DNA from: Pedobacter cryoconitis | Lineage (GTDB): Bacteria; Bacteroidota; Bacteroidia; Sphingobacteriales; Sphingobacteriaceae | Direction of reading: 5' to 3' | Length of the DNA stretch: 64,000 nucleotides | NCBI RefSeq assembly: GCF_001590605.1 | Contig: NZ_CP014504.1 | Location: forward strand, 4,092,001 to 4,156,000 | Part shown: positions 17,508 through 61,274 of the stretch, in pieces | Position numbering within the stretch: position 1 is the stretch's first letter | How the letters are laid out: every line of letters begins with the position of its first letter | The notes under the pieces: model-generated | What the model was told of the DNA's origin: nothing | Database searches by the model: none | The model's input: the letters and a program-made list of their open reading frames with translations, nothing else | Program-made: the position numbers and the translations under genes

Positions 17508-17583
17508 TTTCTAGTATAATAATATTTTTATATGTAAAGGTCTGATCATTACAACAAACCCTGTTTATCCTTTTTTCGGACTG

Positions 17584-17614
17584 CAAATATAGAACTTATG
17601 TTTTTAATATGCAA
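17584..17614 (-). promoter_or_regulatory. rpsT promoter
   Basis: On the minus strand TTG at 17612-17614 and TATATTTG at 17584-17591 are separated by 20 bases, a full match to the Bacteroidota housekeeping promoter. The start site would be near 17579. Confidence 0.7.
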
Positions 17615-18163
17615 AACGATATTACAAATATTTTAAATATTCTTGATTATACTATAATCTGATTATAAGATTCTTAAATATTGATTCACCATATTTTGCA
17701 AAAATACAGTATTACATTAGTTGTGATATCACAATCATGCAGTTTATTATATAACAAACTATATAATTATATTATCTGTCTGTGTGATTCATATCAACTA
17801 CAGTTTCATCTTCCATGACATCAAGTAATCTTACTATAAAACACCTATTGTGCAGGGGTACTGTAGGGGTTGTGTTGTAGGTTGAAGTAGCCTTGAACTA
17901 GCATTGAAGTAGTATTGAAGTAGCCTGAGGTACTTCAAGGGTAGTCGAACCCTGCTTCAACCCTACTTCAATGTATACCACAACCCCTACAGTACTATAC
18001 CAGAATGTCAAGTCAAATCAGGAATAGACATAGACATATCCGTCACAGGAGAAAAAAGATAGGTACTAAAAATTCTGGAAGAATTTATGTGAAGATAGTC
18101 AGGCCTGTATTTTTTTAGTTCAAGCATTCACAGCTATAATTAGTAAATTGGGGGACAATATTT
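17615..18163. other. Long intergenic region between rpsT and the ATPase gene
   Basis: About 550 bases without a supported gene. The first 230 bases are very A/T-rich with nothing recognised. The middle holds the large repeat hairpin described separately. The remaining part is plain A/T-rich DNA up to the -7 box of the ATPase gene. It marks the left border of the accessory pocket. Confidence 0.6.
17858..17995. repeat. 138-bp hairpin element built from 11-bp repeats
   Basis: Perfect 17-bp inverted ends (17858-17874 and 17979-17995) enclose four tandem 11-mers of the form TTGAAGTAGcc (17882-17925), then after a short turn four 11-mers of the inverse form TnCTTCAAccc (17931-17974). The two halves pair in the same register as the ends, with the first and last 11-mers nearly perfect and the inner ones imperfect. 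It contains no gene. It may be a dispersed intergenic palindrome or a MITE-like element; other copies would have to be looked for in the genome. Confidence 0.8.
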
Positions 18164-18171
18164 TAAATTTG
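18164..18171 (+). promoter_or_regulatory. -7 box before the ATPase/TOPRIM pair
   Basis: TAAATTTG fits TAnnTTTG and lies 17 bases before the ATG. The nearest TTG upstream (18148-18150) is only 13 bases away, so the -33 part is weak. Confidence 0.45.
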
Positions 18172-18188
18172 TAGAAAACCTAATATCA

Positions 18189-19442
18189 ATGCCAGAAAAC
18201 GAAAATCTTCCATCCTTGTTTCTTGACGAATTACATGTCAAAGGTTTTAAATCTATTGAGGATTTAGAGGCTAGGCTAAATCCAGGGTTGAATATTCTTA
18301 TAGGAAAAAATGGCGCAGGAAAGTCTAATTTTCTAGAATTTCTTGATTCAGCAATAGCTACTATTTATAAAAAAAAAGGATTTTCCTTTCAATCTGCATT
18401 TCTGAAACTCAATGACAGAAACAACAATAGATTCGATCTTAACATCAGAAAACCAACTAAGAAAAATCTATTAGGAGAAAGTAACCGAGTCAATGATGAG
18501 TTGTATCACCATAGCTTATTCATCAATGACTCCATAGTATTTGACAGTTATGACGAAGAAATCATTGGCAAAGAATTTGATTTTAATGGCAAAAAAATAA
18601 AATCAAGCAGAAGCATAAATACTATCCTTTTAAAGCTGGGTCATAGCTTTATATCCCCACTTTATATCCGCTTCAATCTTACAGAGCAACTGGATGGAAT
18701 TGCAACACCGGGAATTATACAAATCCCCTTGATTTACGATTTTATCGATTGGGAGTTTGGCAAAACTACTCGCTTTTTAACAGATATAATCGATAATGCT
18801 TCGTATAGTTTCCAGAATACTTATGAAGATAAACTTATGGCATTACCAGAAGATAGAGATACTTTTGAGAGAGAAAAAATCATTCAGAGCGTAGATGTAT
18901 CCTGGTTCTTGGAAAATCTGATTATTCCTGAAGAATCTATCGGGAACCTCATACGCTTTTCACCTATTCAGGGATTAAGATTTAATGAAGGTATTAACAT
19001 TTATAGAGACGAGAAATCCATCACAGCAGAAAACATTAAACTGGAATTCCTTATTAACGAGCGCTGGATTCCCTGGTCACATCTTTCTGATGGAACTAAA
19101 CGGTTATTCTATTTAATTACGGAAATCACTAACAATAAGACAGGTCTAATCCTCATAGAAGAGCCTGAACTTGGCATTCATCCACATCAGTTTGATCTCC
19201 TCATGCAATTTATCAAGGAACAATCCTTACAAAAGCAGATCATCTTATCCACTCACTCGCCAAAAGCGCTGGATCATCTGGAAGAAGACGAACTGGATAA
19301 AATTCTCATTGCTGTATACGATCGTGAAAAAGGAACACAACTTCACCATCTCAATCCAGAGCAAATACACAAAGCAAAAACCTATATGAACGAAGTGGGT
19401 TACTTAAGTGATTACTGGTCACTTTCAGATCTAGAAGAATGA
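18189..19442 (+). CDS. AAA/ABC-type ATPase (OLD/RecF-like), putative defence ATPase
   Basis: 417 residues. Walker A GKNGAGKS at 39-46, an ABC-like signature LSDGTKRL near 299, Walker B LILIEEPE at 320-327 followed by LGIHPHQ, and the switch histidine in LSTHSP near 356. This is the single-chain SMC/RecF-like 'AAA_21/AAA_15' layout with a long insert (about 60-290) in place of coiled coils. The next gene overlaps its stop by 4 bases and encodes a TOPRIM-like protein, so the pair resembles split OLD-type nucleases and PARIS-like phage defence systems. Cytosolic. Defence is inference; the ATPase call is firm. Confidence 0.85.
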   Translation: MPENENLPSLFLDELHVKGFKSIEDLEARLNPGLNILIGKNGAGKSNFLEFLDSAIATIYKKKGFSFQSAFLKLNDRNNNRFDLNIRKPTKKNLLGESNRVNDELYHHSLFINDSIVFDSYDEEIIGKEFDFNGKKIKSSRSINTILLKLGHSFISPLYIRFNLTEQLDGIATPGIIQIPLIYDFIDWEFGKTTRFLTDIIDNASYSFQNTYEDKLMALPEDRDTFEREKIIQSVDVSWFLENLIIPEESIGNLIRFSPIQGLRFNEGINIYRDEKSITAENIKLEFLINERWIPWSHLSDGTKRLFYLITEITNNKTGLILIEEPELGIHPHQFDLLMQFIKEQSLQKQIILSTHSPKALDHLEEDELDKILIAVYDREKGTQLHHLNPEQIHKAKTYMNEVGYLSDYWSLSDLEE

Positions 19443-20020
19443 TTAGAGTCGGCTTGGTAGGAGAAGATCCAAATGACACCTCTTCATTGAAGATATTATT
19501 GAATAAGAAATATAGTGGCCGCGTACATTTTCAACCTTTATTGAAACGTATCAGAGGTCACCAATTAGACAGCATAAAGACGAAAAGAGCTGTTGGAGCA
19601 GAAATGTCATTGAATAAATGCAGTTTCATTTTATTTATTCGGGATTTAGATGGCCTCCATACTCAAAAAGATCTATTACAACTCAAAAACGAATGGTTTT
19701 CTTCACTCAATCAGGTTTGTGGAAATCAAAATATCTTTCTACTTAACATCTGGGAACTAGAAGCCATGATCTTTGGCGATATTGAAACATTTAATTCCAA
19801 ATATGGTACTACGATCAAAGCAGACAAAAACCCTATGATGATTTCGAACCCTAAAGAAGAATTGAAGAGAGCTACCTATAAGGGGCGCAAGCGATTTGAA
19901 GAATCTCACTGTCCGGAAATATTTGAGGCTCTTGACTTTGATCGTGTGGTATCTAGATGTGATTTTTTTAGAGATTTCATAATTCAGTTTGAAAGAAGAC
20001 TGGAAATTAGATCAAAATAA
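19439..20020 (+). CDS. DUF4276/TOPRIM-like nuclease partner of the ATPase
   Basis: 193 residues, start ATG overlapping the ATPase stop (ATGA), which implies translational coupling. TOPRIM-like features: an N-terminal strand with a conserved acid (VGLVGED, E9/D10), a central hydrophobic strand ending in D-x-D (FILFIRDLDG, D69/D71), then NIWELEAMIFGD and a basic/aromatic tail (RCDFFRDFI) as in DUF4276 proteins. It would supply a metal-dependent nuclease site controlled by the ATPase. The exact Pfam family is my reading of motifs. Both genes are A/T-rich and stand between repeat elements. Confidence 0.7.
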   Translation: MIRVGLVGEDPNDTSSLKILLNKKYSGRVHFQPLLKRIRGHQLDSIKTKRAVGAEMSLNKCSFILFIRDLDGLHTQKDLLQLKNEWFSSLNQVCGNQNIFLLNIWELEAMIFGDIETFNSKYGTTIKADKNPMMISNPKEELKRATYKGRKRFEESHCPEIFEALDFDRVVSRCDFFRDFIIQFERRLEIRSK

Positions 20021-20085
20021 TCAGCTACTTAGGTTAAAAAATGAATATATTCTCATTAAACCCTTTCATTCAATACTCAAAATAC

Positions 20086-20093
20086 TATTTTTG
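20086..20093 (+). promoter_or_regulatory. Candidate -7 box for purN
   Basis: TATTTTTG fits TAnnTTTG. If used, the transcript would begin near 20098 and carry all three 52-bp repeats in its leader. No TTG is present at -33, so support is weak. Confidence 0.35.
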
Positions 20094-20128
20094 ACAAAAA
20101 ACTACTTTATATGGATTCAACGCTATCC

Positions 20129-20284
20129 CTAATGAAAACCGGCGTAGCCAGCTTGAATACCATTAAATAACAATAAACAACTAATGAAAACCGGCGTAGC
20201 CAGCTTGAATACCATTAAAGAACAATAAACAACTAATGAAAACCGGCGTAGCCAGCTTGAATACCATTAAAGAACAATAAATAC
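20129..20284 (+). repeat. Three tandem 52-bp repeats ending at the purN start
   Basis: Units start at 20129, 20181 and 20233 (52-base period), and a fourth partial start (ctaatgaaaa at 20284) contains the purN ATG. The units are almost identical: unit 1 differs from 2 and 3 by one base (t for g) near the end, and unit 3 is one base shorter. Each unit has its own ATG followed by a mini-ORF: MKTGVASLNTIK in unit 1 and MKTGVASLNTIKEQ in units 2 and 3, with stops 6-13 bases before the next ATG. They look like duplications of the purN translation start region. Confidence 0.9.
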
Positions 20285-20286
20285 TA

Positions 20287-57915: not shown

Positions 57916-58353
57916 ATGAACGAGAACTTAATCAAAAGAATAGAAGATTTTTTATTCGATAAGGATAATTCATTATTCTTAGGCAAACCTGCAGAAGATA
58001 AAATAATTACTGATGCAGAGAAAAAACTAAATGTAAAATTTGACAAAGATTATATTCAATTCATTAAATTATTTGGAGGCAGTTTTGTTGGACTTCCTGT
58101 ATATGCTTTCTCAAATTCAGAGATGCTATCAGGCCAAACAGTAGTCGACCTAACAAATGAATTTAGAGAATCTTATGAAGTTGATGACAGATGCCCAATT
58201 ATACAATCAAGTTATGTCATTTCTGTTGAAGGCAATGGTGATCCTATAATGATTAATCCTTCGGGAGAAGTTTTAATTTACTACCATGATGATGATTTAG
58301 TGGAAACAATAGCCCCTTCATTTGAAAAATTGATAGAGAACAACCTGAATTGA
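57916..58353 (+). CDS. SMI1/KNR4 (SUKH) immunity protein for the RHS toxin
   Basis: 145 residues. SUKH superfamily pattern: ITDAEKKLNVKFDKDYIQFI followed by KLFGGSFVG, and the C-terminal PSFEKLIENNL. SUKH proteins are common immunity proteins for nuclease toxins. It starts 3 bases after the toxin stop codon, the normal place for the cognate immunity gene. Confidence 0.88.
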   Translation: MNENLIKRIEDFLFDKDNSLFLGKPAEDKIITDAEKKLNVKFDKDYIQFIKLFGGSFVGLPVYAFSNSEMLSGQTVVDLTNEFRESYEVDDRCPIIQSSYVISVEGNGDPIMINPSGEVLIYYHDDDLVETIAPSFEKLIENNLN

Positions 58354-58414
58354 TCCTAAGTTCTAGAATTTAAAAATCTGAAGCAAGAAATTAAACGCAT
58401 TGTAAGTCTAAAAT

Positions 58415-58846
58415 ATGTTATCAGATAAAATAAAGAATTTTTGCAAAAGCAAAAATTGGTGGTATGAGGAATTTACACAACAATATTCCAATGTAATATT
58501 AGATTTAGAAATCTCTTTAGATTCAGATTTTGCACAGTTCTATTTGCATGCAGAACAGGGGCCAACATTTTATAGCAGGAAAAAGGAACTCTATCAAATT
58601 TGTTGGTCTTCAATTAACTCATCGTATATGGATCAAATAAATCATTTACAAAAAGTATTGGCCATACCACATGAATATATTCCTCTTGACAGTTTTGAAG
58701 GTGAGGGTGGTTTTTTTTATAATCGAAAAACAGAAGAGGTCATAGAAATAGCATTAGGAGAAAAGTTGAAAGATTTTTTAGATGGTAAATTACTTCCTCA
58801 ATGGAAAACCATTAATAGTTTCCTTGAGTGGTATTTTGAATTATAG
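58415..58846 (+). CDS. SUKH-like second immunity protein
   Basis: 143 residues, a divergent SUKH/SMI1-type layout: AEQGPTFYSRKKELYQICWS, IPLDSFEGEGGFFYNRKTEE, and the tail WKTINSFLEWYFEL. Not close to the first SUKH gene. A broken near-copy of its central and C-terminal parts lies at 60508-60757. It probably protects against the same or a former toxin tip at this locus. Composition is very A/T-rich. Confidence 0.7.
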   Translation: MLSDKIKNFCKSKNWWYEEFTQQYSNVILDLEISLDSDFAQFYLHAEQGPTFYSRKKELYQICWSSINSSYMDQINHLQKVLAIPHEYIPLDSFEGEGGFFYNRKTEEVIEIALGEKLKDFLDGKLLPQWKTINSFLEWYFEL

Positions 58847-58928
58847 CGAGCTCAATCTGTTTTTCCTACCGTAGCCATTCGATTATTTATGTTAGCTTAT
58901 AAAAAGAGATAGCAAAATGTAATTAATC

Positions 58929-59246
58929 ATGAAAAATAAACCCCTTAATAAAATGTCTAAATTTCATGATGTAATAAATGAATTTGATGTCCTGCAAAAC
59001 AATTATGAATTTGACAATTTAACAGGTGGCAAAAAAGATTTTGATTTAGTACATGAAAGATTAAAGGAAAGCGGCGAGTTAAAATCAAAAGCCGAAGCTA
59101 AAAGGTTCTTAAAAGAGAATGGTTTAACAGCTCACCATCATCAGGATATGAGAACGATAGAATTGATTCCATCTGACTTACATAATAATGTGCCACATGA
59201 AGGGGGCGCATCTAAATTGAGAAAAATTACCGGAGCCTATCATTAA
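58929..59246 (+). CDS. Orphan WHH-like HNH nuclease toxin domain
   Basis: 105 residues with no delivery domain, signal or RHS core. The C-terminal half carries GLTAHHHQDMRTIELIPSDL then HNNVPHEGGAS. This is the WHH-type HNH/Endo VII pattern (HHHQD...M.L+P..+H....H.GG) with Ala in place of Trp. It looks like a displaced tip from another RHS or polymorphic toxin, kept beside its immunity gene. The ATG at 58953 is an alternative start. Whether it is expressed is unknown. Confidence 0.72.
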   Translation: MKNKPLNKMSKFHDVINEFDVLQNNYEFDNLTGGKKDFDLVHERLKESGELKSKAEAKRFLKENGLTAHHHQDMRTIELIPSDLHNNVPHEGGASKLRKITGAYH

Positions 59247-59266
59247 GCTATTAAAGCATAGAATAT

Positions 59267-59857
59267 ATGAAAAATAAAATAGAAGAACATTTTGATGAAA
59301 TTGGAGGAGTTACATTTAATGCATCCAATCAAGTCTCATCTAAAGAATTTGAGCACGAAATAAATATATTGGAAGAATATTTCTCCTCTAAAATTAATAA
59401 TGTTTTACTTGAAACATGGTTTCAGTATAACGGACAAATTTTTAAAGAGAGTATTGGGATCGAAGTGAAAGAGAATATTCCAATCTTGGGAGATTCGAAA
59501 TTTATAGACTTTGGACGCTTTTTTTCCATTGTAAATAGAGGTGACAATGTTTTCGGGATGATTAAAAGCAATGATGATATATTTAATAAGCATTTCCTCC
59601 CTTTTTCGGAAGCACTAGAGGGTGATTTTTTTGCTTATAACATTATTGATAAAGGAGTATATTATATCCTACATGATTTTAATGAGAATGAAAAACCTAA
59701 TTACAAAGTCTCTGATAGCGTTGAAAACTTCTTTTTATCCCTAAAGAGAGAGACCCAAGATCAACTAGAAGAAAACAATACTCCAAAATTAGTGAAAGAA
59801 AAAGTTTCATCTTCTCTATTGGATAAATTGAAAAAATTCAAAAAAGACAATCCATAG
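59267..59857 (+). CDS. SUKH-like immunity protein paired with the orphan toxin
   Basis: 196 residues, starting 20 bases after the WHH-like toxin. SUKH/SMI1-type features: SIVNRGDNVFGMIKSNDDIF, FLPFSEALEGDFFAYNI and YYILHDFNENEKPNYKVSDS, which resemble SUKH immunity proteins of nuclease tips. A Lys-rich C-terminal tail (LDKLKKFKKDNP) extends beyond the domain. Likely the cognate antidote of the preceding cassette. Confidence 0.75.
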   Translation: MKNKIEEHFDEIGGVTFNASNQVSSKEFEHEINILEEYFSSKINNVLLETWFQYNGQIFKESIGIEVKENIPILGDSKFIDFGRFFSIVNRGDNVFGMIKSNDDIFNKHFLPFSEALEGDFFAYNIIDKGVYYILHDFNENEKPNYKVSDSVENFFLSLKRETQDQLEENNTPKLVKEKVSSSLLDKLKKFKKDNP

Positions 59858-59906
59858 GTGTTTATTAATAATATCCACTAATAAAGAATAGACGTATAAA
59901 TAATTT

Positions 59907-60500
59907 ATGAAATCTATTAAGCCAAAAGAATCAGCCTTTATATATAATCCAAAAGGTAATGAACTAACCTTAATAGCAGACCTGAGATTTAATTATGATT
60001 TAAATTGCCGAAGATTTCTATTAGATGAAAATCCTTACGGTGAACCATCCCTAGTAGAAATATCTGATGTCAAAATCAATGAAGAATCAACAGTATTATC
60101 TTTTCATGCATTTTATCGAAAGAAAGAAGTTGATTTTAGATTAGAAAGCACCAATAGTCGTGACAATATAATTTTTCAAACAATTGCAAATTTTGACCTT
60201 TCATTTAATGGTAAAGAAGATCTTGATAAAGTTCAATTATTTTTCAAAGGCGGAAAATTCAACGAGTTAGAAACCCTAAAACAATCATCAGATTATGAAT
60301 TAATTTCATCATTAACAATATTTAATGACAATGATGAAATTGTATTAATTAAACAGAATCCATGGGGTAGGTTTAAAGTAGGTGCTATCGAACTCACAGA
60401 TAAACAGCAAATAATTTACAAATTGGAAGATGGTTCAAGTGGTATATATCAGGTAGATATTAATCCTGAAGTTTACAGTATCTTCTCTAAATTAATTTAA
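59907..60500 (+). CDS. Unknown small protein in the immunity array, 197 aa
   Basis: No family recognised. Beta-rich with no signal peptide or membrane helix; segments such as FIYNPKGNELTLIADLRFNY and VLIKQNPWGRFKVGA show a regular strand pattern. Very A/T-rich like its neighbours. By position between immunity genes it is probably an immunity protein or a passenger of an exchanged cassette; this is not shown by sequence. Confidence 0.55.
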   Translation: MKSIKPKESAFIYNPKGNELTLIADLRFNYDLNCRRFLLDENPYGEPSLVEISDVKINEESTVLSFHAFYRKKEVDFRLESTNSRDNIIFQTIANFDLSFNGKEDLDKVQLFFKGGKFNELETLKQSSDYELISSLTIFNDNDEIVLIKQNPWGRFKVGAIELTDKQQIIYKLEDGSSGIYQVDINPEVYSIFSKLI

Positions 60501-60507
60501 TATTTCT

Positions 60508-60757
60508 ATTGACAGTTTTGAAGGTGGAGGTGGTTTCTTTTACAATCGAAAACAGATAGCCCAATTGTTGCCATGCCACAACATATTGAGAAACTATTTC
60601 TCGAATTGAGTGGAGAAATGAAGACCTTCTTTGAGAAATTTGGATTAAAAGAAACTAAGGATAAAGTGTGGGAATTATGGCCATCCCGAAAAATATATAC
60701 CACTCACTAGCTTGAATAAGAAGACACATGGAAAACATTTAATGAATTTTTAGAATC
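60508..60757 (+). pseudogene. Mosaic pseudogene: immunity fragment joined to toxin fragment
   Basis: The first 50 bases (60509-60557) nearly repeat 58686-58735 of the second SUKH gene (IDSFEGGGGFFYNRK versus LDSFEGEGGFFYNRK), with a one-base deletion in an A run that shifts the frame. Directly joined, 60558-60584 matches 57721-57747 of the RHS toxin tip (SPIVAMPQH versus GPIVAMPQH) at 25 of 27 bases. Further on, TWKTFNEFLES (to ~60757), after an in-frame TAG, recalls the SUKH tail QWKTINSFLEW. It is a recombination scar of older toxin/immunity cassettes. Confidence 0.8.
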
Positions 60758-60788
60758 CACTCCCCCCACTATAGTCATCAGACTAAAT

Positions 60789-61274
60789 ATGAAATATAAA
60801 CTCTTTGCCGAACTAAACGGATTTGTTATTTACAATCCATTACTACTAGAAGATTACTTAGATAAAAATTCTTTAGATAAAAAAGATGTTTTCAAACATT
60901 TTACAGAAACTGAACATGGTGACATAATTACCAGAGAAGGAATCGCTATTCCAATAATCGGACTTCCTGATGATTATTATAACTTTCAGATAGGGAATAA
61001 AACAACCGTACAAAATAAAATGATTGATTCTTCAGGCTGGATATTCAATGGTCAAAATGGAATAGTTAGAATAATTGGGATTGGTTACTTTAAAGATATG
61101 AGCGCTATAAACGAAATCAATAGTCTGAATTTTAGAATGGAAGAAGGTTGGAAAGAATTAAGTATAATAAGTTATTATGACGATGAGCCAGGATTTATAC
61201 TAGAATTTGAGGCTGCTGACCATAAGCCAGATTTCTCCGGAGATCTCGAAACTAATTATGGATTTGAGTGGTAA
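60789..61274 (+). CDS. Unknown small protein at the end of the immunity array, 161 aa
   Basis: No family recognised. No signal peptide or membrane helix. It has the size, acidity and A/T-rich composition of polymorphic-toxin immunity proteins (FKHFTETEHGDIITREGIAI, SYYDDEPGFILEFEAADHKP). It follows the mosaic pseudogene and is the last gene before the strong terminator at 61454-61488. An immunity role is inference from context. Confidence 0.55.
   Translation: MKYKLFAELNGFVIYNPLLLEDYLDKNSLDKKDVFKHFTETEHGDIITREGIAIPIIGLPDDYYNFQIGNKTTVQNKMIDSSGWIFNGQNGIVRIIGIGYFKDMSAINEINSLNFRMEEGWKELSIISYYDDEPGFILEFEAADHKPDFSGDLETNYGFEW

Follow-up and report, generated by a model that had tools for sequence, protein, structure and literature searches.

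An ATPase/DUF4276 gene pair of Pedobacter cryoconitis matches the candidate defence system HEC-01 and has a hypervariable ATPase middle

Introduction

What system is encoded by two overlapping genes that stand among housekeeping genes of the Pedobacter cryoconitis chromosome, and what might it do for the cell? A first-pass annotation, made from the DNA letters alone, had placed two reading frames at 18164-20020 and proposed that they form an unlisted defence system, carried on an acquired island marked by repeats on both sides. We followed up that proposal in a window of 64,000 nucleotides (contig NZ_CP014504.1, positions 4,092,001 to 4,156,000), whose coordinates are used throughout. Both frames are present, with the correction that the first starts at 18189 and not at 18164. 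We refer to them as genes A and B (Table 1).

Table 1. Coordinates of the gene pair, its motifs and the surrounding cassette in the window
Feature	Position	Strand	Remarks
Mobile cassette, approximate extent (promoter region, A and B)	18128..20030	+	Compared with the empty sites of sister species G013 and of G006, and the occupied site of G416
Gene A, 417-aa ABC-type ATPase (AAA_21; PADLOC HEC-01A)	18189..19442	+	
Walker A of A (GKNGAGKSN, residues 39-47)	18303..18329	+	G39, N41, G44, K45 and N47 invariant in 36 homologues
Hypervariable middle of A (residues ~59-258), candidate sensor	18363..18962	+	
ABC signature of A (LSDGTKRLF, residues 299-307)	19083..19109	+	
Walker B (residues 320-329) to switch H356 of A	19146..19256	+	
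Conserved C-terminal motif of A (GYLSDYWSLSDLE region, residues 405-416)	19401..19436	+	W410, L415 and E416 invariant
Gene B, 193-aa DUF4276/TOPRIM-like protein (PADLOC HEC-01B)	19439..20020	+	
B codons E9 (metal A glutamate) and D13 (metal B acid)	19463..19477	+	Invariant in 40 homologues; E-x3-E/D spacing as in Bp OLD E400/E404
B DxD codons D69 and D71	19643..19651	+	Invariant
B codons E106 and E108	19754..19762	+	Invariant; spacing as in Bp OLD T506/E508
B codon K139, counterpart of catalytic lysine K562 (Bp OLD)	19853..19855	+	Invariant

An ATPase without a nuclease domain and a partner with a TOPRIM-like fold

The product of gene A matched the Pfam family AAA_21 (3.3e-24) and is a complete RecF/Rad50-like ABC ATPase. 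Its Walker B sequence is LILIEEPELGIHPHQ and its switch STHSP, and across 36 homologues K45, S300-D301-G302, the Walker B residues E324-E325 and the switch residue H356 were invariant. No nuclease domain was found in the chain, which stops about 60 residues past the switch histidine, in agreement with the initial reading of this gene. The predicted model of A (pLDDT 90.2) had the fold of SMC/Rad50 heads and PtuA ATPases, with Z of about 20, and the solved sequences nearest to it were PtuA, AriA, OLD, GajA and Rad50. The conserved motif at its C-terminus is a possible docking site for B.

Gene B had been described as having an E...DxD pattern of a TOPRIM/DUF4276 fold, and both halves of that description were borne out. 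Its product scored 39.0 bits against DUF4276 (PF14103), above the curated Pfam cut-off of 30.2; this was the sole Pfam match at E <= 1, so that PF20469, the OLD-like TOPRIM family, was not among the matches. The predicted model of B was confident (pLDDT 92.9). Foldseek alone returned 0 matches to it at E <= 0.001, and hhalign of the B profile against 10 OLD TOPRIM sequences gave a probability of 0.1%, that is, no sequence relation. The two best VIA-align matches were both TOPRIM domains, those of the class 2 OLD nucleases from B. pseudomallei (Z 9.2, rmsd 4.2, 166 aligned) and X. campestris (Z 8.4, rmsd 4.3, 162 aligned), followed by matches at Z 7.9 and below, with Ts OLD further down. Taken alone, these structural matches are moderate evidence for a TOPRIM fold.

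The residue pattern strengthened this reading. Thirteen columns of B were invariant across 40 sequences, and among them E9, D13, D69, D71, E106, E108 and K139 reproduced the OLD-type two-metal pattern in order and in short-range spacing. In the B. pseudomallei enzyme (Bp OLD), metal A is bound by E400, D455 and D457 and metal B by E404, T506 and E508, and the lysine is K562 (PMC6755086). The seven residues of B follow the same order with the same short intervals (+4, +2, +2); from its order and helix position, we infer that K139 corresponds to K562. In the model, strand 2-7 is followed by E9, and strand 63-69 ends at D69, with D71 next, giving the alternating beta/alpha core that characterizes TOPRIM domains, in which strand 1 leads to a glutamate and strand 3 to DxD. 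The residues of the metal set are where they would be expected: they follow strands 1 and 3, lie in helix 1 and occupy the beginning of the helix that comes after strand 4. Because hhalign and Foldseek alone gave nothing, the TOPRIM assignment rests on VIA-align and the residue pattern together. Based on these features, B looks as though it would work like an OLD TOPRIM nuclease, and the profiles do not support its membership of that sequence family.

Relationship to HEC-01 and other ATPase/nuclease systems

Searches against PADLOC-DB 2.0.0 gave HEC-01A as the best family for A (2.7e-31), a model matched by all 36 of its homologues, and HEC-01B as the only family for B (1.3e-9), matched by 31 of 40. 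The side-by-side arrangement of an ATPase gene and a DUF4276-type gene that marks HEC-01 was also found, with the two genes overlapping by 4 nt in the window and adjacent at every homologous locus; this comparison was made through the public models alone. Judged by these sequence matches, the pair is the candidate defence system HEC-01, listed in the 2023 database, and not a new type, so the earlier description of it as unlisted did not survive. HEC stands for Hma-embedded candidate, and PMC12988326, which cites a 2024 preprint by Payne et al., reports antiviral activity for several HECs, including HEC-06.

The proposal that this pairing differs from Gabija, OLD nucleases and PARIS was confirmed. 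As in PARIS (AriA and AriB), the ABC ATPase and the TOPRIM nuclease would be separate genes, and A matched the AriA models (3.1e-25) as well as AriA chains, but B matched neither DUF4435 nor AriB. The ATPase is of the type found in class 1 and class 2 (GajA) OLD proteins, and B has the two-metal residues in the same order, but here there are two chains and not one, and the TOPRIM parts have no detectable sequence relation. Unlike in Gabija, no UvrD-like helicase gene GajB adjoins; the next genes in the window are rpsT and purN. AbiL (AbiLi/AbiLii, RloB-type) likewise combines an ATPase with a small, separate TOPRIM-like protein, but B matched DUF4276 and not AbiLii or RloB. Among solved proteins, A came closest in sequence and structure to Septu and retron PtuA, whose partner is the HNH nuclease PtuB and not a TOPRIM protein. 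Elsewhere the host genome encodes another protein of the OLD type, a single chain about 701 aa long (L075, G000:C1:2036362 region).

The combination of an ABC ATPase with a TOPRIM protein, and the resemblance of A to SMC heads, also raised the possibility of an anti-plasmid system like Wadjet, which would act on a form of DNA and not on a phage protein; the Wadjet TOPRIM nuclease JetD is related to the OLD TOPRIM according to a review (PMC10568477). We consider this highly improbable, as neither a kleisin nor any other Jet-like gene is conserved beside the pair and the predicted model of A lacks a long coiled coil.

A hypervariable region in the middle of A

Comparison of closely related copies showed that A is not evenly conserved. 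In four of five close pairs, the middle of A was 34-49% identical, the ATPase lobes 64-86% and B 77-88%. Between the window and G416, identity was 78% over residues 1-58 of A, 34% over 59-258, 81% over 259-417 and 87% in B. The corresponding values for the three lengths of A and for B were 69, 38, 86 and 88% in L016/L018, 64, 49, 77 and 77% in L017/L022, and 81, 42, 70 and 79% in L025/L026. In the fifth pair, L034/L035, which is near-identical, A was evenly conserved throughout. For the window and G416, the middle had a dN of 0.60, compared with 0.12-0.14 for the lobes; synonymous sites were close to saturated.

On the basis of these sequence comparisons, the middle of A is probably a recognition region that changes fast under pressure from changing triggers. 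A duller alternative is that it is a linker under relaxed constraint, which is less likely because the model folds most of its roughly 200 residues with good confidence. What is new here is this hypervariable, probably sensing, middle of A together with the complete two-metal set in a DUF4276 protein.

The variable region also bears on whether the pair is a toxin-antitoxin or addiction module, in which B would be a toxic nuclease, A its neutralizing partner and persistence selfish. Two coupled genes that are rare, mobile and stand alone would suit such a module, some AriA chains have been deposited as "AriA antitoxin", and the reading overlaps with abortive defence. However, a complete ATPase and a fast-evolving region are more than an antitoxin needs, and the plasmid collection we searched held no copies, so that we regard an addiction module as quite unlikely.

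Coupling and distribution of the pair

The translational coupling suggested previously was evident as an ATGA overlap at 19439-19442, in which the start codon of B lies over the stop of A. A contig profile search with a four-sequence alignment (a single-sequence query gave none) recovered 44 independent loci, in all of which A immediately preceded B and shared its strand. These loci were from Bacteroidota, except for one from Ignavibacteria and one from Rhodothermia. Each had two open reading frames, with no fused form among the 44, and no third gene was conserved beside the pair. Both genes had dN/dS values of 0.05-0.19, indicating purifying selection, and the distance matrices of A and B were correlated (r=0.70; at most 0.19 in 2000 permutations), to which common ancestry contributes. 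Chance association is excluded, because the A-B order is kept everywhere, the genes are under purifying selection and their distances are correlated.

Each gene is present as a single copy in the complete, 5.95-Mb host genome. Within Pedobacter, the pair was present in 8 of 145 genomes, one of these being a decayed remnant. That remnant, with a broken frame, is in G410 (L141:5627-6654), and in G193 (L012/L015) B is interrupted by a TAG; such decayed copies fit a dispensable cassette. The Pedobacter changchengzhani copy clustered apart from the other Pedobacter copies, in a tree whose deeper forks are poorly resolved.

A cassette that has come and gone beside purN

The neighbors on the left of the pair, all on the minus strand, are rpsT, a RadC-like gene and, at a greater distance, pheT (Phe-tRNA synthetase beta); those on the right are purN, purH and mreB. 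In most genomes of the genus that were examined, rpsT and purN are adjacent, usually with 200-650 nt between them. The gap is 577 nt in sister species G013, which lacks the pair and whose purN is 99% identical to that of the window, and 2779 nt in the window. These comparisons delimited a bare unit of about 1.9 kb without an integrase or transposase inside. The rarity and patchiness of the pair and the empty site of the sister species upheld the view that it was acquired and is not core.

The rpsT-purN spot (17508-20286 in the window; the same interval in L133-L138) varies across the genus, with a superoxide-dismutase-like gene in G012 and G025 (L136, L137) and one gene each in G028 and G059. 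The interval holds a 195-aa gene in L134 and, on the opposite strand, a 287-aa gene in L135; in other cases it is empty. In G416 the pair occupies the matching position on the purN side, and its left flank is an aldehyde-dehydrogenase-like gene; G006 has that flank without the pair. The same left flank was also seen in G022 and G023. All four combinations of left flank with presence or absence of the pair exist, and the pair has therefore come and gone at the purN spot. In addition, dS between the window and G416 was 0.58 for purN and 0.59 for purH, and about 1.45 for B and the C-terminal lobe of A. As the copies of the pair are more diverged than their flanks, this suggests separate arrivals or allele replacement, although codon bias of purN and purH could be part of the gap. 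Two Mucilaginibacter loci (L016, L018) carry the pair between a pheT-like and a radC-like gene, within a few kilobases of the place that corresponds to its site in the window, a hint that insertions are tolerated in this cluster of genes. Elsewhere in the window, 58001-61000 has about 30% GC compared with 35-45% over most of the window and may likewise have been acquired.

The repeats on both sides of the pair exist, as the first-pass annotation had noted, but neither bounds the module. The left repeat (17858-17995) is a palindrome of about 138 bp made of 11-bp units (TTGAAGTAGC-like) that is dispersed over 12 places in the host genome (24 matches, both strands) and may be REP- or MITE-like. 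The right repeat (20129-20284), unique within the host genome, consists of three tandem 52-bp units that immediately precede purN. Each unit is a mini-frame running from ATG to stop (MKTGVASLNTIK, with or without EQ). Similar units (CCGGCGAAGCCAGCTTGAATACC), variable in number, occur in the purN leader of relatives, also where the pair is absent, and are possibly a regulatory leader or RNA element. A repeat-bounded island was thus rejected.

Genomic surroundings

A link to defence islands found no support. Proteins encoded within two genes of the pair (141) had few PADLOC matches (E <= 1e-10), with no clear excess over those three to five genes away (140), and several of the near matches were to common enzyme types, such as a DndA/SspA match of the cysteine-desulfurase type. 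The one clear defence neighbor was an AbiLi/AbiLii pair directly upstream of A-B in L043 (L043:3508-5187). In the survey of homologues the pair was usually solitary, with ordinary neighbors that changed between loci, as would be anticipated for a gene pair outside any fixed housekeeping context. No copies of A-B were found in the plasmid, phage and viral-contig collections searched.

The mostly housekeeping surroundings, together with the fold of A, which resembles Rad50/SMC heads no less closely than defence ATPases, would also suit a chromosomal DNA-repair or genome-maintenance pair, comparable to RecF with the TOPRIM protein RecR or to a small Mre11-Rad50-type ATPase/nuclease. PMC12796447 reports that an archaeal OLD ATPase has a role in the cell cycle and not in defence. 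We nevertheless think a repair function unlikely, given that the pair is rare and patchy across the genus, missing from the sister species, decayed in some genomes and variable in position, and that a hypervariable middle is not expected of a repair sensor.

A proposed mechanism and its implications

We consider it probable that this HEC-01 member is a two-component abortive module resembling OLD and PARIS systems, with the middle of A as the sensor, ATP as the gate and B as the enzyme that cuts nucleic acid. The two conserved halves of A would dimerize around ATP, and its middle would recognize a product of an invading phage or plasmid. B, as a separate TOPRIM-type two-metal nuclease, would bind A and be held or gated by it until recognition led to an ATP-driven change in A that activates or releases B. 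B might then cut DNA, as OLD/GajA do, or tRNA, as AriB does, and its cutting would stop the infection or kill the cell. Sequence and model show the ATPase anatomy, the OLD-like catalytic set in B, the strict A-B coupling, the patchy turnover and the hypervariable middle of A. Against a defence role stand the lack of neighbor enrichment, the lack of plasmid, phage or viral copies and the possible relaxed constraint in A.

We also propose, tentatively and with slightly more doubt than belief, that HEC-01-type pairs are their own two-gene class of OLD-like immunity, with an exchangeable, fast-evolving sensor between conserved lobes and sensor alleles that replace each other at one constant place in the chromosome, in this case upstream of purN. 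Since the pair is already catalogued, the value of these findings lies in testability and not in discovery. Because the two-metal set is complete, dead mutants can be designed precisely. Should the middle of A be the sensor, natural alleles such as those of the window and G416 (B 87% and lobes about 80% identical, middle 34%) would help to find what this class of ATPase senses in OLD-like and HEC-01 systems.
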